Shown: one piece after another, positions 12,310-35,729 of the stretch
Position numbering within the stretch: position 1 is the first letter of the stretch
Layout: every line of letters begins with the position of its first letter
Assembly (NCBI GenBank): GCA_002395135.1
Contig: DGWC01000077.1
Coordinates: 57,205-98,763 of the forward strand
Direction of reading: 5' to 3'
From: Prevotella sp. UBA4268
Lineage (GTDB): Bacteria > Bacteroidota > Bacteroidia > Bacteroidales > Bacteroidaceae
DNA: 41,559 nt
Notes under the pieces: model-generated
The model's database searches: none
What the model was told of the DNA's origin: nothing
Seen by the model: only the letters and a program-made list of their open reading frames with translations
Program-made: the position numbers and the translations under genes

Positions 12310-12520
12310 CAACATGCAAATGGCATGTTCAAAGCATGGAAACGGAACGAGCAAAGCACTGAAACGGAGTGTGAATACCATAGAAACGGAGCCTGTAAAC
12401 CATAGAAATGGAGCCTGCGGAGCGGCACTATGGAAAAGTAAATTAATTTAATTTGCTCGATAAATTAAGTTGATTTGAAAAGTAAATTAAATTGATTTGC
12501 ACGGTAAATTAAATTAATTT
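12310..12520. repeat. 22-bp-phased degenerate repeat array 1
   Basis: About ten units with a period close to 22 bp fill most of the 520-bp gap between 12174 and 12693. The left half has GC-containing units around ATAGAAACGGAGCC (12332-12419). The right half has four AT-rich units whose 15-nt cores (AAATTAAnTTnATTT) are centred at 12447, 12469, 12491 and 12513, exactly 22 bp apart. Each core is close to a palindrome and is separated by a variable linker of about 4-7 nt. A related array with similar unit order lies at 30918-31316. No protein-coding gene is seen in the gap. 12530-12690 shows nothing I recognise. Confidence 0.8.
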
Positions 12521-12693
12521 GCTGAAGCAAGCAGATGGTTTGGAGGTGCGAAAGCGGCAGTATGCGTCGGGCAAACCGTTGGTTTGCTGGGAGAATGGTG
12601 CATGTTTTGACGGGCGGGAAACACAATATGCGCCCGACCTTCTGGCCAGGCGCATGCTGTGTTATTTGCTTTTCTCGTCTTGTCTCTCCTCGT

Positions 12694-25005: not shown

Positions 25006-27006
25006 TTACATCTTTTGCTGCAGGTATTCAATGCCCAGTTTCTTGGCACGTTCCAGGTTTCGGCTCTTGATGATTTTCTGTTTGTCGCCTTTCTGTTTGA
25101 CGATGGCGGCCGGTTTCAGTTGTCCGTTGTTGCTCTTGCGTATCATCCAGGTGAGCGTCACGTCCCATTTCTCCTTGCATTCTATCTTGTCGGGATAGTA
25201 GTATACCGCTTCGGGCTGCAGGTCGGCATCATAGTTGCCGGTGTCCCATTTCCCGTTTCCGTTGTTGTCTTCAAACATGCGCAGGTAGTAGGTGCCGGGA
25301 TTGACATAGAAAAACTCTATGGTGCCGTTGTCGGTGGATGTTTCTTTCACCACCTTGTCGGAGCCGTTGATCAGTTGTGCCACGATGCGCTTGCCTTTAT
25401 AGCCGGTCACATTCATCAGCAGCGAACTGTAACTGTCGGTGGATTTCACCTTGAATCCCTGTTTGTGGGCTTTCGACACGTTGCCGTAGATGTCTCTGAA
25501 GGCGGCAGAGTCGATCTCCAGACTGTATTCCATCTCCGGTCTCCACTCGCCCAGCAGTTCATAAGTGCGGGGCTTGCCCTTCTTTTCCCTGAACAGGAAG
25601 GGTGCATTAAACCATAGTGTGTCGTGTTTGGAATAGAGATGAATCATGGCCGTGTCGGGCTTTTCTATCGGCACGGGCATGGTGATGGTGATATTCCTGT
25701 CGGGGTCCATTTCTGCGGGAGCCTGATATTGCGGTGTCAGGAACGTGGCGGGCATCTCTTTCTGCACGGGTTCGCCGCGCTTTTCGGCCTTTGCCTGTTG
25801 TTTCTTCCAGTCGTTGTATTCCTTTTCCTTCTGTTTCATGCGCTTTTCATACGGCTCTTTCGACAGCAGGGTGAGCGTGTCGGTCTGTAGCACGAGTGAG
25901 CCGGTAGAGTCGGTGACATGGTATGTTAGTTCCACGTTGAGCGTGTCCTGGTTGATGAGCAGCGAGTCGCGAATCCAGTAGGTGATAGAGTCTTTCTTCT
26001 CCGTGTGTTCCACCACGAAAGCGTCCTTGTCGTCGAAGTTCAGTCCGCGCAGGGTGGGCAGTATGGAGTCGCCATAACTGAAGTAGAGTCCTATCTGGTT
26101 GGCCTTTGCCCTTTCTGATTTCAGCAGATAGCGGTCGGTCTGCACTTCCTGGAAGGCGCGCAGCACGATGTCGTCGGGCAGGAAGTGGGTATAAGGCACC
26201 CTGTTGATGGTTCTGATGTGGAGCGAGTCGCGCCAGATGGTGTCCTGTCGAATGTCGGGCTTGCTGCTTGTCACGATGGTGTCGTGGTTAAAGGCAATCA
26301 TCTCGCTCTTCTGGTTGAACACATAGTCGCCGTCGGCATCTTGCAGTGCAAAGATGCGGTAACTGCCGTTGGCAATGCCTTTGATGACGAAGTGGCCTCG
26401 GCCGTCGGTGCGGCTCACGCGCAGCATTGGCTCATGATGGAATGCCGAGTCGGCCATGTTGGCATACAGTCCCACCAGAATGCCCTTCACGGGTTCCAGG
26501 TTTTCTGCCTCCACCACATAGCCCGCCACCTCCATGGTGTCGATATGGTCGCCTGTTGAGAACGAGTAGGTGTAGTTGCCCAGCGGGTTTCCCTCGTTGT
26601 TGTCGCTGATGGCATCTGAGAAGTCGATGGTATAGGTGGTGTTTTCCTTGAGCGAATCCAGCAGATTCACCGAAATGCGCTTGCCGGCACCCTTTATTTC
26701 GGGCATCTCCATCTGCGGCGGCGAGATCACCACCTTCTCCGTGGCATTCTCCAACTTGATGTATTCATCAAAGAGAATGCTGATTTTCTTGGATTTCACG
26801 TTCACTTCCTTGTCCTCGGGAGAGCAACTCACGATGTGCGGCGGCTCCTCGTCGAACCATCCGCCATCGGGAGATCCCATCTTGGCGCAAGAGAAGAAGG
26901 CGGCCACAACCATGCCGCACAACAGGAGCAAGCATGCCCCGTGGCGAAGACTGCGGTCTTCTCCGTTTCCTTTTCTGCCTATGTCGTTTGTCTTTTTGAT
27001 GTTCAT
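25006..27006 (-). CDS. Ig-like domain lipoprotein of the Bacteroidetes envelope family
   Basis: This 666-residue lipoprotein has lipobox AFFSC (about residue 40) after a charged N-terminus. An Ig-like (SbsA/Big_5 type) domain follows directly (EEPPHIVSCSPEDKEVNVKSKKISILFDEYI, given here only as its region, about 55-150). Next comes a carboxypeptidase-like Ig repeat (VVEAENLEPVKGILVGLYA) and long beta-rich stretches. A second such repeat is near the C-terminus (DNNGNGKWDTGNYDADLQPE). This arrangement is found in widely conserved Bacteroidetes lipoproteins of unknown role. It overlaps the GH3 gene by 4 nt (ATGA), which implies coupled translation. Confidence 0.85.
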   Translation of the reverse strand: MNIKKTNDIGRKGNGEDRSLRHGACLLLLCGMVVAAFFSCAKMGSPDGGWFDEEPPHIVSCSPEDKEVNVKSKKISILFDEYIKLENATEKVVISPPQMEMPEIKGAGKRISVNLLDSLKENTTYTIDFSDAISDNNEGNPLGNYTYSFSTGDHIDTMEVAGYVVEAENLEPVKGILVGLYANMADSAFHHEPMLRVSRTDGRGHFVIKGIANGSYRIFALQDADGDYVFNQKSEMIAFNHDTIVTSSKPDIRQDTIWRDSLHIRTINRVPYTHFLPDDIVLRAFQEVQTDRYLLKSERAKANQIGLYFSYGDSILPTLRGLNFDDKDAFVVEHTEKKDSITYWIRDSLLINQDTLNVELTYHVTDSTGSLVLQTDTLTLLSKEPYEKRMKQKEKEYNDWKKQQAKAEKRGEPVQKEMPATFLTPQYQAPAEMDPDRNITITMPVPIEKPDTAMIHLYSKHDTLWFNAPFLFREKKGKPRTYELLGEWRPEMEYSLEIDSAAFRDIYGNVSKAHKQGFKVKSTDSYSSLLMNVTGYKGKRIVAQLINGSDKVVKETSTDNGTIEFFYVNPGTYYLRMFEDNNGNGKWDTGNYDADLQPEAVYYYPDKIECKEKWDVTLTWMIRKSNNGQLKPAAIVKQKGDKQKIIKSRNLERAKKLGIEYLQQKM

Positions 27007-28544
27007 TCTTTCATTTTCAGCAGTTCTTCAATATGCTCGCGGCTGTTGCTCAGGCGCGGAATCTTGTGCTGTCCGCCCAGTTTGCCCTTCGACTTCAGCC
27101 AGTCGTTGAACAGGTTTTGCCGCGCCGCGATGATTTCCAGGGGCTGCAGTGTGATGTCCTTGTAGCGCTTGGCGTCGTAGTCGCTGTTGATGTCGCGCAG
27201 TTTGCGGTCGAGAATCTGGGCGAAGGCGTTCAGGTCTTTTGGTGGCACGGCAAACTCGATGAGCCATTGGTGGCGGCATTTGGCGTGGTTGTCCATGAAC
27301 ACCGGCGCCGCTGTGTATTCGCTCACCTCCGCTCCCGTCTGCTCGCAGGCATATTGCAGTCCCTTTTCTGCATTGTCCACAATCAGTTCCTCGCCGAAGG
27401 CGTTGATGAAATGCTTGGTACGCCCGGAGATGATAAACTTGTAGGGGTTGGTGCTGGTGAACTTCACCGTGTCGCCAATCAGGTAGCGCCACAGTCCGCA
27501 CGACGTGGAAATCACCATGGCATAGTTCTTTCCCTTTTCCACCCCCCACAGAGGCACCGCCTTTTCCATGAGCGACGGGTCTACTGCGCCCGTTCCCTCC
27601 ACGGCGTTCTCGATGTATTCCATGGGAATAAACTCATAGAACACGCCGTAGTCGAGCATCAGCAGCATCGACGGGTCGGCCGGATCGTCTTGCAGGCCGA
27701 AGAATCCCTCGCTGGCATTATAGGTCTCCATATAGTGCATGCGGTCAGAGGGAATCATTTCCTCGTAGTGCTTGCGATAGGGAGTGAAGGCCACGCCGCC
27801 GTGGAAGAACACTTCCAGGTTGGGCCACACGTCGGTGAGATACTGCTTGCCGGAGAGTTCCAGCACGCGCGTCAGCACCGAGAGCATCCACGAAGGCACT
27901 CCGCTCAGGTTGGTCACGTTCTTCGTCATCGTCTCCTGGGCTATGCGGTCGCGCTTGATCTCGAAGTCGCTCAGCAGCGCCGTCTGTTTCTTCGGCACGC
28001 GCACCAGGTTGGCCAGCGGGTTGATGTTCTCAATAAGGATGGCACTGAGGTCTCCCACCAGTGAATCTCTCAGCGTATAGTTAGGCGAATGGCTACCGCC
28101 CAGTATCAGCGCGCGCCCGTCGAAGAGGCGGCTCTTCGGATTATTGCGCAGATAGAGCGCCACGGAGTCGAAACCGCCCTGATAGTGTATTTGCTTCAGA
28201 CCGTCGTGAGAAACGGGGATGAACTTGCTCTTGTCGTTGGTGGTGCCCGACGACTTGGCATACCATTTCACCTGTCCCGGCCACAGCACATTGTGCTCGC
28301 CGTGGCGCATGCGGTCGATATATCCCTTCAGTTCCTCGTAACTGTTCAGGGGAACGGTCTGTGCAAAGTCGTCATACGTCTTCACGGTGGAGAACAGATG
28401 CTTCCGCCCGTATTCGGTATGTTTGCCTTGCGCCATCAGACCTTGCAGCACCTCGCGCTGCATGGCTTCCCCCTCGCGCTGATGCCGTTCCAGTTCCTTC
28501 TGCCGCTTCAGGAATACATTCCTGACAATTCCTGTAACACTCAT
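27003..28544 (-). CDS. GH3 auxin-responsive-promoter-like acyl-acid amido synthetase
   Basis: I start it at 28544 (MSVTGIVRNVFLKRQKELER), because the promoter at 28568-28596 lies between this ATG and the alternative at 28631. The product has about 513 residues. The plant GH3 adenylate-forming fold is seen in WYAKSSGTTNDKSKFIPVS (ATP-binding loop), ALILGGSHSPNY, MHYMETYNASEGFFGLQDD and RYLIGDTVKF. In plants these enzymes join amino acids to carboxylic-acid hormones. The substrates of the common Bacteroidetes versions are not known. The protein lacks a signal peptide, so it acts in the cytosol. It leads an operon with the Ig-like lipoprotein. Confidence 0.9.
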   Translation of the reverse strand: MSVTGIVRNVFLKRQKELERHQREGEAMQREVLQGLMAQGKHTEYGRKHLFSTVKTYDDFAQTVPLNSYEELKGYIDRMRHGEHNVLWPGQVKWYAKSSGTTNDKSKFIPVSHDGLKQIHYQGGFDSVALYLRNNPKSRLFDGRALILGGSHSPNYTLRDSLVGDLSAILIENINPLANLVRVPKKQTALLSDFEIKRDRIAQETMTKNVTNLSGVPSWMLSVLTRVLELSGKQYLTDVWPNLEVFFHGGVAFTPYRKHYEEMIPSDRMHYMETYNASEGFFGLQDDPADPSMLLMLDYGVFYEFIPMEYIENAVEGTGAVDPSLMEKAVPLWGVEKGKNYAMVISTSCGLWRYLIGDTVKFTSTNPYKFIISGRTKHFINAFGEELIVDNAEKGLQYACEQTGAEVSEYTAAPVFMDNHAKCRHQWLIEFAVPPKDLNAFAQILDRKLRDINSDYDAKRYKDITLQPLEIIAARQNLFNDWLKSKGKLGGQHKIPRLSNSREHIEELLKMKE

Positions 28545-28567
28545 TTTCGGAAAAATCAATTTGAGTG

Positions 28568-28596
28568 CAAAGGTACGGATTATCTTTCGGATACAA
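28568..28596 (-). promoter_or_regulatory. Promoter of the GH3-like gene
   Basis: TACCTTTG on the minus strand (28568-28575) is a good -7. The -33 is a weaker ATTG-type element about 18 nt further up. Confidence 0.55.
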
Positions 28597-28655
28597 TCAT
28601 ATTTTCTTTTTTTTAACGTCAATCGCTGCAAAACCAGTTTTTTCCGCCTAAATGC

Positions 28656-28686
28656 TTGGCGGTTTCAAATAAAAAACGTATTTTTG
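28656..28686 (+). promoter_or_regulatory. Promoter of cassette 1, overlapped by a small inverted repeat
   Basis: TTG (28656-28658), a 20-nt spacer and TATTTTTG (28679-28686) fit the consensus. The inverted repeat CCGCC-N9-GGCGG (28644-28662) overlaps the -33 element and could be an operator. The leader to the ATG at 28793 is about 100 nt, longer than elsewhere in the window, and AT-rich. Confidence 0.55.
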
Positions 28687-28792
28687 CAGTGATGTACGAA
28701 AAATAATGCTAATACCCGGAACGAAGCCAGTATTACGGAATAGATATTTCTAAAAAAAGATCATTAATATTATAACTAAAAAAACTGTAATT

Positions 28793-30619
28793 ATGAAAAA
28801 AAGAAATTTACTTAAACTATTGATGCTCCTCGTAGTATTCGTAGGAGGAGCAGTGAATGCTTCTGCAGAAACGGTTACTGATGTAATTACTGTGGACAAA
28901 CTGTTTAAAGAGTTGCCAAAGACGACTTATACGGATTTCTCTGGTATAAAAATCAGTTCTGATGCAGTATATGCCGGTCAGTGTGGTGCAGGTGAAGAAA
29001 ATGATGTAATTCAGTTAAGGACAAAAAACAGTAACTCTGGAATTGTTTCCACAGTCTCTGGTGGAACACTCAAATCTGTCACAATAGAGTGGGATTCTAA
29101 TCAAACAGCAGGCGAACGCGTTGTAGATATTTATGGTGCCAACAATGCATATACCTCAGCATCCGAATTATATGCAACAACAGGAAACAATAACCAAGGA
29201 ACAAAGATTGGTTCCGCAAAATGTGAAGATGGAGATAAGACCATTGAGGTTGACGGAGATTATACTTTTGTAGGTATTCGTTCCAATAATGGTGCAATGT
29301 ATATTAAACAAATCACTATTGTATGGGAAACCAGTTCTACATCTAAAGCCGATCCAGAACTTGCTTATTCAGCAGAGAGTTTTACTTATGATTTTGGCAA
29401 TGCTGCAGGAGCAGTGTTCCCTTCATTGACATATAATCCCAAGTATGAAGGAACGATTACTTACAAATCAAGCAAAGAAGATGTTGCTACGGTCGATGCC
29501 AATGGAAATGTAACCCCAGTAGGAAACGGAACAACAACAATTACTGCTGTTGCTGAGTCTACAGACGCGTTTAAGAGCGGCTCCGCTTCTTATGTTCTTA
29601 CGGTAGAGAATAAAAAATTTGAAATCGAAGACGGTGTGTTCGACTTTACCAAAACAGAAGATTATGGTTCAGAAGCGGATCTTATCTCTGATGGAAGTAT
29701 TTATGCAGAAGCATCTACTACTTGGACTGCAATAAATGTTACAATGGAAGCAGGCGGAAAATATCGCTGGTGGTATAATGCAAAAGGAAATTCCATGCGA
29801 CTCTATTCAGGAGGTGACGATGCTGCCCCCGGTTCGCTTACATTCTCAGTGCCAGCAGGCAAAGTGATTAAAAAGATTGAAATAACGGCTACAACGGATA
29901 GCAAAGACCCAGGAATCTTAGCATCTTCAGAAGAAGGATTAGACGGCTTCAATTGGGAAGGAAGTGCAGAGAGTGTTACTTTAACTCATGATGGTGGTAA
30001 GTCTATCAACATCTCTAAGATTGTCGTCATCTATGAGAATGCTGTAGAAGACAATATTACCGTATCTGTTGGTGCAGAGGGCTTTGCCACATTCGCTGCT
30101 CCTTACGTGCTGAATGTTCCCGAGGATTCTCCTATTAAGGCTTACGTGGCAACTGTTTCTGGCGACGAAATCACACTGACCAAAGTTAACGTGGTGACTC
30201 GCGGTCAGGGTGTGCTGCTCTATGGTGAACCGAACGCAACCGCAGAGTGGTCGCCTTCAGCAGAGGATGTTATATTCCCTGGCGAGAATCATTTGATTGG
30301 AACACTTACAGGCATTGAAAAACTGGAAACACAAGAACCCACTTCAGCCAATAAGAACTACATCCTGAACGTTGGTTCTAAGGGCATCGGCTTCTACGCC
30401 GCCAACGGAATGGAAGTTCCCGCAGGCAAGGCATACTTGTCAGTTCCTGCATCAACAGGTGCCAAGCAGTTCTACAGCATCAAGATGGCCACGGGCATCA
30501 GCGAACTCAATGCCGAGAAGGCCGACAACGCTATCTACAACCTGAACGGTGTGCGCGTGAAGGAGATGAACCAGAAGGGCGTTTACATCGTGAACGGCAA
30601 GAAGGTGGTGAAGAAATGA
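28793..30619 (+). CDS. Secreted multidomain protein with C-terminal sorting-like tail (cassette 1)
   Basis: This 608-residue protein has a signal peptide (VFVGGAVNASAE). A beta-sandwich with GTLKSVTIEWDSNQTAGERV and YTFVGIRSNNGAMYIKQITI follows (about 30-185). A Big_2-like Ig domain (YKSSKEDVATVDANGNVTP) is at about 189-272. A second sandwich starts EIEDGVFDFTKTE (about 275-420). The C-terminal module (from about 422, VSVGAEGFATFAAPYVLNVP) ends in a sorting-like tail IYNLNGVRVKEMNQKGVYIV and NGKKVVKK. Such tails resemble type IX secretion signals, so surface or extracellular location is likely. No catalytic motif was found; adhesion or glycan binding is possible. Codons before about 30060 are AT-rich, and after it match the rest of the window. 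Confidence 0.8.
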   Translation: MKKRNLLKLLMLLVVFVGGAVNASAETVTDVITVDKLFKELPKTTYTDFSGIKISSDAVYAGQCGAGEENDVIQLRTKNSNSGIVSTVSGGTLKSVTIEWDSNQTAGERVVDIYGANNAYTSASELYATTGNNNQGTKIGSAKCEDGDKTIEVDGDYTFVGIRSNNGAMYIKQITIVWETSSTSKADPELAYSAESFTYDFGNAAGAVFPSLTYNPKYEGTITYKSSKEDVATVDANGNVTPVGNGTTTITAVAESTDAFKSGSASYVLTVENKKFEIEDGVFDFTKTEDYGSEADLISDGSIYAEASTTWTAINVTMEAGGKYRWWYNAKGNSMRLYSGGDDAAPGSLTFSVPAGKVIKKIEITATTDSKDPGILASSEEGLDGFNWEGSAESVTLTHDGGKSINISKIVVIYENAVEDNITVSVGAEGFATFAAPYVLNVPEDSPIKAYVATVSGDEITLTKVNVVTRGQGVLLYGEPNATAEWSPSAEDVIFPGENHLIGTLTGIEKLETQEPTSANKNYILNVGSKGIGFYAANGMEVPAGKAYLSVPASTGAKQFYSIKMATGISELNAEKADNAIYNLNGVRVKEMNQKGVYIVNGKKVVKK

Positions 30620-30625
30620 TTCTTC

Positions 30626-30653
30626 AGTTCATAGTTCATAATTCATAGTTCAG
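30626..30653 (+). repeat. Heptamer repeats between the large gene and the peptide gene, cassette 1
   Basis: Four imperfect copies of AGTTCAT fill most of the 54-nt spacer. The equivalent spacer of cassette 2 has the same heptamer. Confidence 0.85.
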
Positions 30654-30673
30654 AAACAAAAAAATTAACAGAT

Positions 30674-30856
30674 ATGAAAAAAGAATATATCAAGCCAATG
30701 GCATTGGCAAAGGAAATGAAGGGCGAGGAAATGCTTACCGGTAGTAAGATTCTCTGGGTGGATGATGACCTGAACGGCGGCGGTGGTGTTACCCAGGAAG
30801 AGGGTGCCACAAAGCCTGCCATGGGCAAAGGCATCTGGTTCTATCTCGACGACTAA
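30674..30856 (+). CDS. Short acidic peptide of unknown function (cassette 1)
   Basis: This 60-residue peptide starts MKKEYIKPMALAKEMKGEEM and ends in AMGKGIWFYLDD. The first 20 residues are nearly identical to those of the second peptide at 33329. The middle is variable and acidic or Gly-rich (WVDDDLNGGGG). The end again shares MGK, IW and an aromatic/acidic tail. There is no signal peptide. Similar short proteins starting MKKxYIxP are common in Prevotella and Bacteroides, to my knowledge without an assigned role. A conserved front and variable back resemble a leader/core precursor, but no modifying enzyme is nearby. It follows the large gene by 54 nt and precedes a strong terminator. Confidence 0.75.
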   Translation: MKKEYIKPMALAKEMKGEEMLTGSKILWVDDDLNGGGGVTQEEGATKPAMGKGIWFYLDD

Positions 30857-30885
30857 TCATCCTCATTGATGCTTCAAGCATGTTT

Positions 30886-30916
30886 AAGGGCGGTTCCGCA
30901 GTGAGCCGCCCTTTTT
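30886..30916 (+). terminator. Terminator of cassette 1
   Basis: AAGGGCGG (30886-30893) pairs with CCGCCCTT (30906-30913), followed by a T-run. It is 30 nt after the stop of the peptide gene. Confidence 0.85.
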
Positions 30917-30917
30917 C

Positions 30918-31316
30918 GTTGCTGCGGAGCGTGCTGTTCGTTGCCGTGGATTGTGCTGTTCATATCCGTGGATTATGCTGTTTGTTTCGGCCGCGTAGTG
31001 TTTCGTTGCAGCCGTTTGGCCCTTTTTCGTTGCTGCTATCTTGCAGAATGTAAGCGCGAAACGGCAGGAATGGAGCCGCTAAAGTGCCGCTATGCCAAAG
31101 CAAATTACATTAATTTACCGCGCATATTACATTAATTTGTTTTTCAAATTAAGTTAATTTACTCAGCAAATTACATTAATTTACTGCTGAGAACCTATCG
31201 TATTGTTGCAGCAAATCAATATGATTTACCGTGCAAATCAATATGATTTACTTTTCCGTTCTGCTGCTCCGTGTCGTCCAAACCGGCAGTTCCTGTCGTC
31301 CAAACTGCCGGTTTGG
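30918..31316. repeat. 22-bp-phased degenerate repeat array 2
   Basis: This fills most of the 668-bp gap between the two cassettes. Units such as GTTGCCGTGGATTGTGCTGT repeat every 22 bp at 30918, 30940, 30962 and 30984. GC-rich units around GAAACGGCAGGAATGGAGCC lead into AT-rich units with 15-nt cores centred at 31109, 31131, 31153, 31175, 31220 and 31242. The last two units (31272-31293, 31294-31315) begin with the same TGTCGTCCAAAC and form a 14-bp perfect hairpin. The order of unit types and parts of the sequence (ATGGAGCC, then CTATG, then AAAG, then AAATTA) match array 1. No gene is seen here. 31317-31437 shows nothing else recognisable. Confidence 0.8.
31278..31316. terminator. Strong hairpin at the end of repeat array 2
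   Basis: CCAAACCGGCAGTT (31278-31291) pairs perfectly with AACTGCCGGTTTGG (31303-31316) around an 11-nt loop, followed by TGTTTTCTTC. It may end stray transcription before cassette 2, or be only a structural part of the array. Confidence 0.5.
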
Positions 31317-31437
31317 TGTTTTCTTCGCAGCATTCTGTAGGTGACCATGCAGACTTGGGAGATAATGAAACGAATGAGGAACGTGCAGGCGGAAAATGAC
31401 GAAAAATGTTGAAAATGAACATGTTTTCTCGTTTTTA

Positions 31438-31469
31438 TTTGGAAGATTGGAATTTTATGCTTAATTTTG
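31438..31469 (+). promoter_or_regulatory. Promoter of cassette 2
   Basis: TTTG (31438-31441), a 20-nt spacer and TAATTTTG (31462-31469) fit the consensus. The leader is about 50 nt. Confidence 0.65.
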
Positions 31470-31524
31470 CCCCACTTTTTCGGAAATAACAAAATAACAT
31501 AAACTTTTTAATCAACAATTAATT

Positions 31525-33273
31525 ATGAAGAAAGGATTTTTACTCCAATTCATCATGCTCCTCATCGTCTTCGTGGGAGGAGCAGTGAGTACGTATGCTC
31601 AGAAGACTACTACGTACAAGTTCACATCTAAATCTTGGAATGCAGATAATGGTAATTGGACAAGCGGGAAAGACGGTAATCAATTAAATGCATCTCAAGG
31701 CGTGCAGATTACTACAGGCACTAGTGGTGCTAATGCAACGTCACCCATTTCTTTTGAAAATGTAAGTAAGGTCGTTGTTACTTATTCTACAAATTCAAGT
31801 AAAGGTGCTGGTAATGTAGCCATTCAGGTTGGCAGTAATACAACTCAGTCACAGGAAGTTAACAAGGAAGGAGGCACAACAGACCGTACACTTGAGTATA
31901 CATATACAGATTCAGAAAGTGGTAATGTGAAAATTACTGTGACATGTACAACCAATTCTGTTTATATCAAGAGCGTAGACATTACTGCTTCCAACGGTGT
32001 TGCTTCTTTGGAAGATCCCAAGATAGCATATCCCGTAAGCGAATTCACTTACGACTATGACAAAGCAACGGGTGTAAGTTTCCCAGAGTTGACCATTAAC
32101 TCCGAGTATGATGGTGAAATCACCTATAAGTCTAGCAATACGACAGTGGCTACAGTAGATGAAAACGGAAATGTAACTCCTGGAGAGAACGGAACAGCAA
32201 AGATTACTGCATCATGGCCTGCCACAGAAATCTATTCAAGCGGCTCTGTTTCTTATAGTCTGACCGTTATGAACAAACCAACTGCTTCATTTGAAATCGA
32301 AGACGGTGTGTTCGACTTTACCAAAACAGAAAATTATGGTTCAGGTGCGACACTTATCACGGAAGGTTCAGATTATGCAGAAGCATCTACTACTTGGACA
32401 GCAATAAATGTAGAAATGGTCGTAGATGGAAAATACCGTTGGTGGTCTGGTACAAATAACACTATGAGACTCTATGCAGCAGATGACACTCATAGTGCAG
32501 GTTCTATTTCATTCTCGGTGCCGGAAGGTAAGGTGATTACTTCTGTCGACTTCGGTCAGACTGCTTCATCTCTGAGTGCAAGTGTGGGTGAAATCAACGC
32601 GAAGGTATGGACAGGTGTATCTCAGTCCGTAACTTTTACTTATAGTGCTTCAAAGGGTTCCATCAACATCTCTAAGATCACCGTTACCTATGGTGACGTT
32701 CCTACCGTATCTGTATCTGTTGGCGAGACAGGCTTTGCCACACTGGCATCTGACATCGCTTTGGATTTCACCAATTCAGAAATCAAGGCCTACAAGGCTT
32801 CTGTCAGCGGTGAGAACATCACACTGACCAAGGTTGACAAGGTGGCTGCCGGCGAAGGTGTGCTGGTTTACTATGCTGACGGTGCCAAGACCGAGGATAT
32901 TCCTGCTGCAACTGAGACTGTTGAGGCTTCTGCTGACAACGCTTTCGTGGGCGCTCTGGAGGAAATCGCTTCTCTGCCTACCGAGGGTGAGAGCGGTAAG
33001 AACTACATCCTGAGCATCGTAAACGGCAAGGTGGGCTTCTATCAGGCTGCCGGTAAGAAAGTGGCTGCCGGTAAGGCTTACTTGTCAGTTCCTGCAACAG
33101 GTGCCAAGGAGTTCTACATGGTTAACATGGAGAATGCCGTGGTTACCGGCATCAACGAGGTGAACACAGAGAAGGCCGACAACGCCATCTACAACCTGAA
33201 CGGCGTGCGCGTGAAGGACATGAGCCAGAAGGGTGTTTACATTGTGAACGGCAAGAAAGTCGTCAAGAAATGA
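31525..33273 (+). CDS. Secreted multidomain protein with C-terminal sorting-like tail (cassette 2)
   Basis: This 582-residue protein is a paralogue of the cassette 1 protein with the same domain order. The signal peptide (VFVGGAVSTYAQ) is followed by an N-terminal sandwich (about 30-160) that is poorly conserved, and a Big_2-like domain (TYKSSNTTVATVDENGNVTP, about 167-250). The second sandwich begins FEIEDGVFDFTKTE (about 255) and the C-terminal module begins at about 393 (VSVGETGFATLASDIALDF). The tail IYNLNGVRVKDMSQKGVYIV plus NGKKVVKK is almost identical. A stretch of about 50 nt near 32290 differs from its partner near 29620 by a single base, which suggests gene conversion or recent duplication. 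Function is unknown; extracellular binding is likely. Confidence 0.8.
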   Translation: MKKGFLLQFIMLLIVFVGGAVSTYAQKTTTYKFTSKSWNADNGNWTSGKDGNQLNASQGVQITTGTSGANATSPISFENVSKVVVTYSTNSSKGAGNVAIQVGSNTTQSQEVNKEGGTTDRTLEYTYTDSESGNVKITVTCTTNSVYIKSVDITASNGVASLEDPKIAYPVSEFTYDYDKATGVSFPELTINSEYDGEITYKSSNTTVATVDENGNVTPGENGTAKITASWPATEIYSSGSVSYSLTVMNKPTASFEIEDGVFDFTKTENYGSGATLITEGSDYAEASTTWTAINVEMVVDGKYRWWSGTNNTMRLYAADDTHSAGSISFSVPEGKVITSVDFGQTASSLSASVGEINAKVWTGVSQSVTFTYSASKGSINISKITVTYGDVPTVSVSVGETGFATLASDIALDFTNSEIKAYKASVSGENITLTKVDKVAAGEGVLVYYADGAKTEDIPAATETVEASADNAFVGALEEIASLPTEGESGKNYILSIVNGKVGFYQAAGKKVAAGKAYLSVPATGAKEFYMVNMENAVVTGINEVNTEKADNAIYNLNGVRVKDMSQKGVYIVNGKKVVKK

Positions 33274-33280
33274 TTTTTTT

Positions 33281-33305
33281 AGTTCATAGTTCATAGTTCA
33301 TAGTT
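33281..33305 (+). repeat. Heptamer repeats between the large gene and the peptide gene, cassette 2
   Basis: Three perfect copies of AGTTCAT plus a partial fourth lie in the 55-nt spacer, as in cassette 1. Confidence 0.85.
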
Positions 33306-33328
33306 AGAAACAAATAAATATAAAAGAT

Positions 33329-33505
33329 ATGAAAAAGGATTATATCAAGCCAATGGCTTTGGAAAAGGAGATGCAGAGCGAGCAGATGCTGGCCGACAGT
33401 ATCCTGAGTGTTGAAGGTGAAAGCGGCAGAGGCAAACTGCAGAACACAGATGCTGAAACCGATGCCATGGGCAAGCAGAGCATCTGGGACTACACCAACG
33501 AGTAA
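33329..33505 (+). CDS. Short acidic peptide of unknown function (cassette 2)
   Basis: This 58-residue peptide (MKKDYIKPMALEKEMQSEQM at the start, AMGKQSIWDYTNE at the end) is the counterpart of the peptide at 30674. Shared features are MKKxYIKPMAL, a KEM..E.ML block, then a serine and an Ile-Leu pair, a variable acidic middle, and AMGK..IW with an acidic end. No signal peptide and no cysteine is present. It lies 55 nt after the large secreted-protein gene and 43 nt before a terminator, so both are probably on one transcript. It could be a regulatory peptide, a precursor peptide or a partner of the secreted protein; sequence alone does not decide. Confidence 0.75.
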   Translation: MKKDYIKPMALEKEMQSEQMLADSILSVEGESGRGKLQNTDAETDAMGKQSIWDYTNE

Positions 33506-33548
33506 TCACTGCGAGGACGTTGACTTAACAACTCCATGCTTATACAAA

Positions 33549-33586
33549 GAGGGCGGCGCTTCATTTTGGGAGTGCCGCCTTCTTTT
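33549..33586 (+). terminator. Terminator of cassette 2
   Basis: GAGGGCGGCGCT (33549-33560) pairs with AGTGCCGCCTTC (33571-33582), followed by TTTT. The stem sequence resembles that of the cassette 1 terminator (GGGCGG). Confidence 0.85.
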
Positions 33587-33606
33587 GTTAAATATGCTCA
33601 ATAAGT

Positions 33607-33665: not shown

Positions 33666-35729
33666 ATGGAAATAAAAAGAAATGTAACTTTGTTCTTGTG
33701 TCTGCTGTGCGCCGTGGCCGGATGGTCGGCAACGCGCAGTGTGACGATGCTCAGCGACGGCTGGCAGTTTTATCCGGCCTATGACGTGAGCCGCCATCCC
33801 AAGGCAGAGACGGTGAGCGTGCCGCACACGTGGAACCTCAACGATGTATTTAGCGGCATGAAATATGAGCGCGGTACCTATCTGTATGAGCGCACGCTGA
33901 CATGCGATGCCGCCCAGATGAAGGGCAAGCGCGTGTTCCTGAAGTTCGATGCCGTGAACTCGTTTGCCGAGGTGGCCGTCAACCAGCAATATGTGGGTCA
34001 TCATGCAGGCGGATATACTGCCTTCTGCCTTGAGATTACCGATAAACTGAAAGAGGGCGACAACAAGATAAGCGTGGTGGCAAGCAATGCCTACCGCACC
34101 GACGTGGCTCCGCTGGCCGGCGACTTCAACGTCTACGGCGGCATCACGCGCCCCGTAGCGCTCATCGTGACGGGCAGCGACTGCATCTCGCCTCTCGACT
34201 TCGGTTCGTGCGGTGTCTATGTGCATCAGGACAAGGTGAGCCGCGAGCGGGCCTACATCACCGTGGAAACCATGCTCTCGCTGACGAGCGGCACGCAGGG
34301 CAAGCAGGTGCGCGTGCGCATCGTTGACGGCGAGGGACGCACGGTGGCCGAGAAGACTGGCGACGTGGTTTCGCCCGCATCCCACAACACGGCCCTCAGC
34401 ATTGAGAACCCGCAACTGTGGAACGGACGACAGAACCCCTATATATATAAGGTGGAGGTGGAACTGATGGACAACGGCAGGGTGGTGGACAGCGTGACCG
34501 ATCAGACGGGACTGCGCTATTTCTCCATCGATGCCGACAAGGGATTCTTCCTCAACGGCAAGCACCTGGACCTGCACGGCGTGTGCCGCCACGAAGAGGG
34601 CTACAAGACTGCCGGACTGTATAACGAGGCCGCCATGAAGCAGGATGCCGACATCATCCGCGACCTGGGTTCCACGGGCGTGCGCTTCGTGCATTATCCC
34701 CATTCCAAATATGATGTGCAGATGTACGATGAGCGCGGCATCGTGCTCTGGTATGAACTGAACCTCGCCGGACCGGGCGGTTACAACTCTCCCGGCTACG
34801 TGAAAAACCCACAGTTTGAGGCCAACGTGATGCAGAATCTCATCGAGATGATCAAGCAGAACTATAATTCGCCGGCCATCTGCTTCTGGAGCCTGTGCAA
34901 CGAACTGTCGTTCAAGTATGACGAGCCGGCCACCTTCCTGCGCCAACTCAACGCCAAGGCGAAGCAACTGGACCCGCAGCGGCTCACCACGCTCGCCATC
35001 TGCTATAGCCAGGACCTGTTTCAGGGCATCACCGACACCTTCGGATGGAACAAGTATTTCGGATTCTATGAGAACCAGAGCGGCGTGGGCGAGTTCTTCG
35101 ACCAGGCCAAGATAGAGGCCAACGGCATTCCCATGGGCCTGTGCGAATACGGTGCGGCGGGCAGTCCCAACCAGCACGGATTCGAGAAGAAGGTGACCAA
35201 TAAGATTCACTATGAGGAGAACCAGGCGCGTGTGCACGAGGAGAACTGGCGCGACATGTATAAGCGTCCCTATGCCTGGTGCAAGTTTATCTGGCAATAC
35301 AGCGACAACCCCTCAAGCATCCGCGACGAGGGCGACGGTCCGGGCATGAACGACAAGGGCATCGTGACGTGGGACCGCAAGACGTTCAAGGACTCTTATT
35401 ATTTCTATAAGGCCAACTGGACCACTGAGCCGATGCTCTATATCGCCGCACGGCGCTACACCCAGCGCACCGACGCTCTGACCGACGTGAAGGTGTACAC
35501 CAACCAGCCGCAGGCCACGCTCTACGTGAACGGCAAGAAGGTGGGCAAGGCGAAGAAAGACGACATCAGCCGCATCGTGTTCAAGAACGTCACCCTGCGT
35601 CCGGGCGAGAACACCATCACCGTGAAAGCAGGCAAACTGACCGACGAGTGCCGCTGCACGCTGGATGCCAACGCCAAGAAAGAAGACAGCAAACAGCAGG
35701 GCGGAAGGCTTGACGGAGCCGTGAATTGA
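33666..35729 (+). CDS. Secreted GH2 family glycosidase (beta-galactosidase-like)
   Basis: This 687-residue protein has a signal peptide (LFLCLLCAVAGWSA). The GH2 sugar-binding domain (DGWQFYPAYD, VSVPHTWN, KGKRVFLKFDAVNSFAEVAVN), immunoglobulin-like domain and TIM barrel follow. The acid/base Glu is in FWSLCNELS (about 420) and the nucleophile Glu in MGLCEYGA (about 494). GFFLNGKHLDLHGVCRHEE is the usual barrel entry. A C-terminal Ig-like domain (VKVYTNQPQATLYVNGKKVGKAKK) ends the protein. Beta-galactosidase is the commonest activity in such GH2 enzymes, but beta-glucuronidase and others are possible. It is convergent with the next gene. Confidence 0.92.
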   Translation: MEIKRNVTLFLCLLCAVAGWSATRSVTMLSDGWQFYPAYDVSRHPKAETVSVPHTWNLNDVFSGMKYERGTYLYERTLTCDAAQMKGKRVFLKFDAVNSFAEVAVNQQYVGHHAGGYTAFCLEITDKLKEGDNKISVVASNAYRTDVAPLAGDFNVYGGITRPVALIVTGSDCISPLDFGSCGVYVHQDKVSRERAYITVETMLSLTSGTQGKQVRVRIVDGEGRTVAEKTGDVVSPASHNTALSIENPQLWNGRQNPYIYKVEVELMDNGRVVDSVTDQTGLRYFSIDADKGFFLNGKHLDLHGVCRHEEGYKTAGLYNEAAMKQDADIIRDLGSTGVRFVHYPHSKYDVQMYDERGIVLWYELNLAGPGGYNSPGYVKNPQFEANVMQNLIEMIKQNYNSPAICFWSLCNELSFKYDEPATFLRQLNAKAKQLDPQRLTTLAICYSQDLFQGITDTFGWNKYFGFYENQSGVGEFFDQAKIEANGIPMGLCEYGAAGSPNQHGFEKKVTNKIHYEENQARVHEENWRDMYKRPYAWCKFIWQYSDNPSSIRDEGDGPGMNDKGIVTWDRKTFKDSYYFYKANWTTEPMLYIAARRYTQRTDALTDVKVYTNQPQATLYVNGKKVGKAKKDDISRIVFKNVTLRPGENTITVKAGKLTDECRCTLDANAKKEDSKQQGGRLDGAVN

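Follow-up and report, generated by a model that had tools for sequence, protein, structure and literature searches.

The 41,559 bp stretch of Prevotella sp. UBA4268 analysed here (contig DGWC01000077.1, positions 57,205 to 98,763; the window) comes from contig C45 of the own genome, G000, a draft assembly of 3.15 Mb in 108 contigs that is 85% complete and that the nearest named relative among its proteins marks as Prevotella-like. Two neighbouring cassettes with an identical order of parts are found at 28679–33588 (+). Each has a -7 box, a large open reading frame (ORF) for a secreted protein, a heptamer repeat, a small ORF for a peptide of 60 or 58 aa and a terminator-like hairpin; as this series is present twice in the same order, the duplicated cassette reported in the initial annotation is real. 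The subject of this work is the peptide, its pairing with the large protein and the enzymes that may act upon it. G-, C- and L-numbers refer to the genomes compared, to contigs and to fetched loci, respectively.

28679..28687, +: -7 box TATTTTTGC of cassette 1, from the TAnnTTTGY scan
28793..30619, +: large secreted protein 1, 608 aa, with a signal-peptide-like start, Big_2 at aa 216–257, pre-tail domain and tail
30047..30484 (borders approximate), +: pre-tail domain of protein 1, GFATFAAP...PAGKAYLSVPAS type, from its profile; the domain that the peptide tracks
30485..30616, +: C-terminal tail of protein 1, ending in IYNLNGVRVKEMNQKGVYIVNGKKVVKK, from the A4 profile; no match to TIGR04183 or PF18962
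30626..30652, +: AGTTCAT heptamer repeat of cassette 1, from the repeat scan; also found elsewhere in the genome
30674..30856, +: peptide 1, 60 aa, with predicted leader aa 1–21, Y5xxP8, predicted core from T22 (TGS) and conserved Ser24
30743..30745, +: Ser24 codon of peptide 1, a predicted phosphorylation site from the Ser spacing and by analogy with PMC13381572
30886..30913, +: terminator-like hairpin of cassette 1, with T run; z -4.2
31462..31470, +: -7 box TAATTTTGC of cassette 2, from the TAnnTTTGY scan
31525..33273, +: large secreted protein 2, 582 aa, with Big_2 at aa 192–229, pre-tail domain at about 32698–33138 and tail at about 33139–33270
33280..33305, +: AGTTCAT-type heptamer repeat of cassette 2, from the repeat scan
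33329..33505, +: peptide 2, 58 aa, with predicted leader aa 1–21, Y5xxP8 and predicted core from A22 (ADS)
33398..33400, +: Ser24 codon of peptide 2, also a predicted phosphorylation site
33544..33588, +: terminator-like hairpin of cassette 2, with T run; z -7.1

The consensus TAnnTTTGY, the Bacteroidota-type -7 box, has 22 matches in the window, compared with a mean of 8 in shuffled sequence. No TAnnTTTGY box is present in the two spacers and a hairpin lies 3' of the peptide, therefore the cassette mRNA probably ends with the peptide. A rule-based hairpin scan found 5 hairpins against 4.5 in shuffles and, of the two cassette hairpins, listed only that of cassette 1. AlphaFold2 gives the pre-tail domain of protein 1 a pLDDT of about 90 across most of its length.

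Two of the parts first assigned to the cassette were not borne out. The heptamer is found at 13 places in the own genome (24 overlapping matches), of which known peptide cassettes account for just 3, and it is absent from 10 of the 14 spacers in the first set of loci. The tail had been called sorting-like, and by eye its pattern YNLxGxxV...KGxYIxNGKKV is similar to that of type A cargo of the type IX secretion system (T9SS), for which the own genome has SprA (G000:C38). However, the curated T9SS tail models TIGR04183 and PF18962 recognise none of 26 tails at E≤1. We know of no class of T9SS cargo with a regular downstream peptide.

Peptides 1 and 2 share 54% identity; Pfam gives no match to either at E≤1, and NCBIfam none that convinces. 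The peptide is a member of a multi-copy family. Own-genome places number 3 with a strict DNA pattern, 4 with a single-sequence search and 13 with a 48-sequence profile (E≤0.01). This profile has matches in 35 of 40 genomes of the same genus, with up to 24 per genome, and family-wide in 81 of 121 genomes and 18 of 22 genera (E≤0.001). The layout is M-K-K-x-Y-x-x-P, about 11 residues, mostly L-L-A-G-S and then a variable acidic stretch, with a Trp within the final 22 residues in 47 of 59 peptides. Residues 17–22 after the motif Tyr were scanned for Ser in 132 entries, of which two without the motif were skipped (P0023, a homologue that lacks its first residues, and P0072, a fusion product). All 130 distinct YxxP peptides have a Ser 19–21 residues past the Tyr (91 at 19, 35 at 20 and 4 at 21), which is partly circular as evidence because the profiles used to find them already contain both YxxP and the Ser. 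The reading frame is under selection: peptide 1 and that of L012 differ with a nonsynonymous rate (dN) of 0.13 and a synonymous rate (dS) of 1.63, and dN is well below dS in most close pairs. At L052 (2501–3835) the peptide frame continues without a stop into a secreted ORF that appears endonuclease-like by eye, and a similarly long peptide frame is present at G050:C1:48239.

The pairing of peptide and large protein is recurrent, as had been proposed. In all of the first 14 loci the peptide begins 13–82 bp after an ORF that ends in the tail or a close variant of it, of the KGVYIVNGKKV type. Among the matches listed from seven genomes of the genus, such a gene is upstream in 51 of 60 further places; 47 of these were found by pattern, while L079 and L109 overlap the peptide, L108 is 206 bp away and L058 has a degraded tail remnant. 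The nine exceptions include five near lipoprotein- or fimbrillin-like genes, as judged by eye (L057, L061, L064, L068 and L083), with Mfa_like_1 (fimbrillin-type) genes at L057 and L083 only. The others are L071 with another tail type, L088 with no large gene, L101 at a contig end and L103, where the upstream frame stops without a tail. In a sample from the wider family, 27 of 29 loci could be parsed and 20 of these have the tail upstream (one judged by eye), with gaps of up to 239 bp. The peptides of L057, L061, L064 and L083 adjoin lipoprotein-like genes. The large genes before the peptides of L071 and L182 end otherwise (..VVAKNGKFYNAAGAVIK and ..VIVKNGVKYSTNGQILK), perhaps in a second tail type.

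The tail as such is not what the peptide follows. Tail matches number 55 in the own genome, 75 in G055 and 104 in G050; peptide matches are far fewer, at 13, 22 and 16. A profile of the pre-tail segment, trained on peptide-linked genes from other genomes, separates the tail genes. Of those positive for the domain, 14 of 17 in G055 and 8 of 11 in the own genome have a peptide, compared with 0 of 15 and 1 of 13 of those negative for it. Pooled, this is 22 of 28 against 1 of 28 (p = 7e-9), in a table that is a case-control sample because many positives were picked for having a peptide. The 20-bit cut for the domain was fixed after the scores had been seen; at 10 bits the counts (domain-positive with and without peptide, then domain-negative with and without) are 22/7/1/26 and at 30 bits 22/4/1/29. 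Among 40 tail genes fetched as peptide-free, 7 turned out to have a peptide, partly as judged by eye. The peptide therefore tracks the pre-tail domain, and the functional pair first put forward stands in its recurrence, with tail genes that carry this domain as the partner instead of the tail itself.

Because YxxP recalls the leaders of lasso peptides, the genomes were searched for PqqD, the fold of the recognition element (RRE) that binds the leaders of ribosomally synthesised and post-translationally modified peptides (RiPPs). There are 136 PqqD matches in 113 of 121 genomes. Neighbourhoods were fetched for 77 of these places, and the 75 with a PqqD profile match were counted for genes on the same strand within 3.2 kb. 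An HprK-like kinase and a small S24/S26-type peptidase are present at 49 of the 75, these two with an ATP-binding cassette (ABC) transporter at 13, and all of these with NTP_transf_5 at 2, hence kinase and peptidase occur together near PqqD in 64. Six have HprK and NTP_transf_5 only, and five have others or none. The PqqD, NTP_transf_5 and HprK-like genes without an adjoining peptidase are at L212, L220, L225, L226, L248 and L285; in the first four of these, nearby ORFs resemble polysaccharide genes by eye.

The operon of the own genome is at G000:C69 12064–13721, surrounded by genes for a 2-oxoacid oxidoreductase, an aminotransferase, a sigma-70 factor and a trypsin/PDZ protease. In the kinase, the P-loop SGTGKST and NDD are invariant. 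Structure prediction for the kinase is confident (pLDDT 92), and the kinase fits the PEPCK/HPr-kinase fold with a best E of 2e-6. It is homologous to the kinases of the HprK-related kinase A (TIGR04352) and SynChlorMet ScmC (TIGR04249) cassettes, 13 of 13 chosen copies matching TIGR04352 (best 6e-8); the names SynChlorMet and HprK-related kinase were not found in the literature searched. The peptidase matches the archaeal-type signal peptidase I model TIGR02228 in 13 of 13 chosen copies (E≤0.01, best 3e-11), and its Ser, His and Asp are invariant. In three genomes a peptide is found at an end of the operon: at L211 it is the last gene, directly after the ABC transporter, at L263 the first gene, just 5' of NTP_transf_5, and at L213 the first gene, about 300 bp before NTP_transf_5.

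Kinase and peptide occur together. Of the 81 peptide-positive genomes of the family 79 have the kinase, against 20 of the 40 peptide-negative ones (E≤0.001, p = 6e-10). SprA is present in 72 of the 81 and 19 of the 40, and the association is seen both with it (kinase in 70 of 72 against 13 of 19) and without it (9 of 9 against 7 of 21). G113, listed as 100% complete, has 15 peptide matches and the kinase and no SprA match. Within the genus, all 11 chosen peptide-positive genomes have the kinase. Among the five peptide-negative ones it is absent from three and present in one; the fifth keeps only a remnant, interrupted by three stops, at L300 (G053:C13:35995–36327).

This set of genes is close to that of the Linear Polyphosphorylated Peptides (LPP), lppAKBSDN, which is described as comprising a discrete RRE, an HprK-like kinase, a SipW-like peptidase, an NTP transferase and an MsbA-like exporter (Popov et al. 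2026, PMC13381572, as for all LPP features given here). The LPP precursor motif is YxxPxVLxHQxIxFETxxS; the leader, YxxP...FET, is cut before AQS, of which S3 is the sole phosphosite, and N33 and D70 of LppB hold the Pro and Tyr of YxxP. That paper confines LPPs to Bacillota, counts one to three precursors within the cluster and describes the biological role of LPPs as unknown. The family described here likewise has a small precursor with a conserved N-terminus, a variable C-terminus and a YxxP leader. A Ser is third after the cut, here a predicted one (mostly LL|AGS, compared with FET|AQS). The HprK-like kinase, the archaeal-type signal peptidase I and a discrete RRE with Asn and Asp are shared as well. 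An NTP transferase and an ABC transporter accompany them in part of the loci, both together in the 2 of 75 given above. PqqD N35 and D74, which align with N33 and D70 of LppB as numbered from the chain itself, are kept in 73 of 75 and 75 of 75 copies. In contrast to LPP, the host is a member of the Bacteroidota, and the precursor matches, up to two dozen in a genome, are mostly behind genes for exported proteins and away from the enzymes. This dispersal behind exported-protein genes is the new feature with respect to LPP.

It is likely that the peptide is an RRE-guided precursor of RiPP type closely resembling LPP, and that one operon serves many dispersed precursors, mostly behind genes with domain and tail. 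The stand-alone PqqD adaptor would bind the leader (MKKxYxxP...LL) by way of YxxP, the HprK-like kinase would phosphorylate the conserved Ser of (L/M)(L/M)-A-G-S and the peptidase would free the core at the predicted site. The single kinase-peptidase-PqqD operon, on contig C69 in the own genome, would act in trans on the dispersed precursors. Because most of the sampled precursors are directly behind an exported gene with domain and tail, each core would be made along with one surface protein, the putative exporter of which is the T9SS.

Several results weigh against this reading. The leader lacks the letters HQ and FET of LPP, and in about 7 kb around the own operon there is no NTP transferase or ABC exporter, which bears on how the core would leave the cell. 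The PqqD profile gives a better match to the lasso RRE TfuB1 (2.6e-6) than to LppB (0.21). The own kinase and peptidase score far below the curated cut-offs of their models, in which the kinase also differs from those of the TIGR04352 and TIGR04249 cassettes. A peptide is within 3.5 kb of PqqD in just 6 of the 77 fetched loci, and 3 of these were fetched because their closeness had been noticed; the 73 loci fetched for other reasons give 3 (p = 0.01) against an expected 0.44, which is rough because the count admitted weaker matches than the expectation. The co-occurrence statistics treat genomes as independent, with relatedness uncorrected. The kinase is present in those 20 peptide-negative genomes, although among these G142 carries a weaker peptide at the head of a PqqD operon, and G004 has the kinase and no peptide match. 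Conversely, G155 and G165 have peptides and no match for kinase or PqqD, and G208 has no PqqD match. In a best-per-genome sample the tail is upstream in 14 of 21 parsed loci, as judged by eye (7 of 28 unparsed). Finally, the close pair L056/L058 shows no constraint, L058 adjoining a degraded cargo gene.

The alternative that survives best, although we regard it as unlikely, is that the peptide is not modified and is a small cytoplasmic chaperone that keeps the pre-tail domain competent for export. The peptide tracks this domain, and within genomes peptide similarity follows domain similarity (r 0.40, p 0.0005). Such a correlation is expected if cassettes duplicate as units, and the part of the protein upstream of the domain correlates with peptide similarity too (r 0.29 within genomes). 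In a fused model, a weak one from 19 sequences, the peptide is predicted to be disordered and undocked. Nor would a chaperone account for YxxP and the conserved Ser, for the joint occurrence of peptide and kinase, or for peptides that lie at PqqD operon ends (L211, L213 and L263) or beside fimbrillin-type genes.

There is rather little to recommend another RRE-dependent RiPP, such as a lasso-like one in which PqqD hands the leader to a cyclase from another locus. The nearest solved RRE is lasso TfuB1 and YxxP is also a lasso motif. The paeninodin-like phosphorylated lasso peptides are described as sharing the PqqD RRE, the HprK-like kinase and a nucleotidyltransferase (PMC13381572, PMC7533575), and their Bacillota members as having a WxxP leader (PMC13381572), whereas YxxP is found here. 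However, such peptides need a macrolactam cyclase and a B2 peptidase, and Pfam finds neither family among seven neighbours of the own operon, a result confined to that neighbourhood as no genome-wide search was made and the other loci are unannotated for them.

A secreted bacteriocin or signal peptide is very improbable. In that case a C39 transporter would cut and export it at LLAGS, which we count as loosely like a double-glycine leader, and the position behind surface genes would serve co-expression alone. The many paralogues with variable C-termini would fit; yet C39 is unmatched in the own genome (at its 85% completeness), in G113 with its 15 peptides and in G117, and is present in just 52 of 121 genomes. 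It is equally hard to credit that the peptide is a selfish or neutral small ORF copied along with tail genes. The cassettes seem duplicated as units, the core is variable and L056/L058 is unconstrained, but dN is below dS in the remaining close pairs, just 1 of 28 tail genes without the domain has a peptide, and four of the five peptide-negative genomes of the genus have no kinase or an interrupted one.

With the peptide read as an LPP-like precursor, its position next to exported proteins that have the domain suggests that the core may work with its exported partner at the surface or en route to it, and the recurrent pairing suggests that the modification of peptides and surface proteins are connected. 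One tentative extension is that each phosphopeptide might be dedicated to the exported protein whose gene is just upstream, acting through the pre-tail domain of that protein in its export, anchoring or assembly, with one operon producing these phosphopeptides for the whole genome. If this were true, RiPP maturation would here belong to protein secretion and not to chemical warfare. The role of LPP becomes a direct genetic question in Prevotella-type bacteria, where native precursors are numerous and each adjoins the gene of an exported protein that can be identified. Also gained are a substrate hypothesis for the kinase-peptidase-PqqD operon, which is common across the family, and a candidate function for a common class of small proteins without a family name in the libraries searched. 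No report of the pairing was found in literature on T9SS and RiPPs, on RiPP precursors of Bacteroidetes, on small proteins or peptides linked to T9SS or Prevotella, and on PqqD with HprK, in a search made mostly outside subscription papers. The available part of a Bacteroidales RiPP survey (PMC10352776) has no match for 'type ix', and that of a rumen lasso survey (PMC7533575) none for 'prevotella'.

In the window, the cassettes are flanked by a gene for a GH3-family protein at 27003–28631 (-) and one for a family 2 glycoside hydrolase at 33666–35729 (+). Four tandem arrays with a period of 22 bp and different units are also present, at 12361–12417, 12438–12522, 30915–30982 and 31099–31185, two of them built around ATTAATTT.

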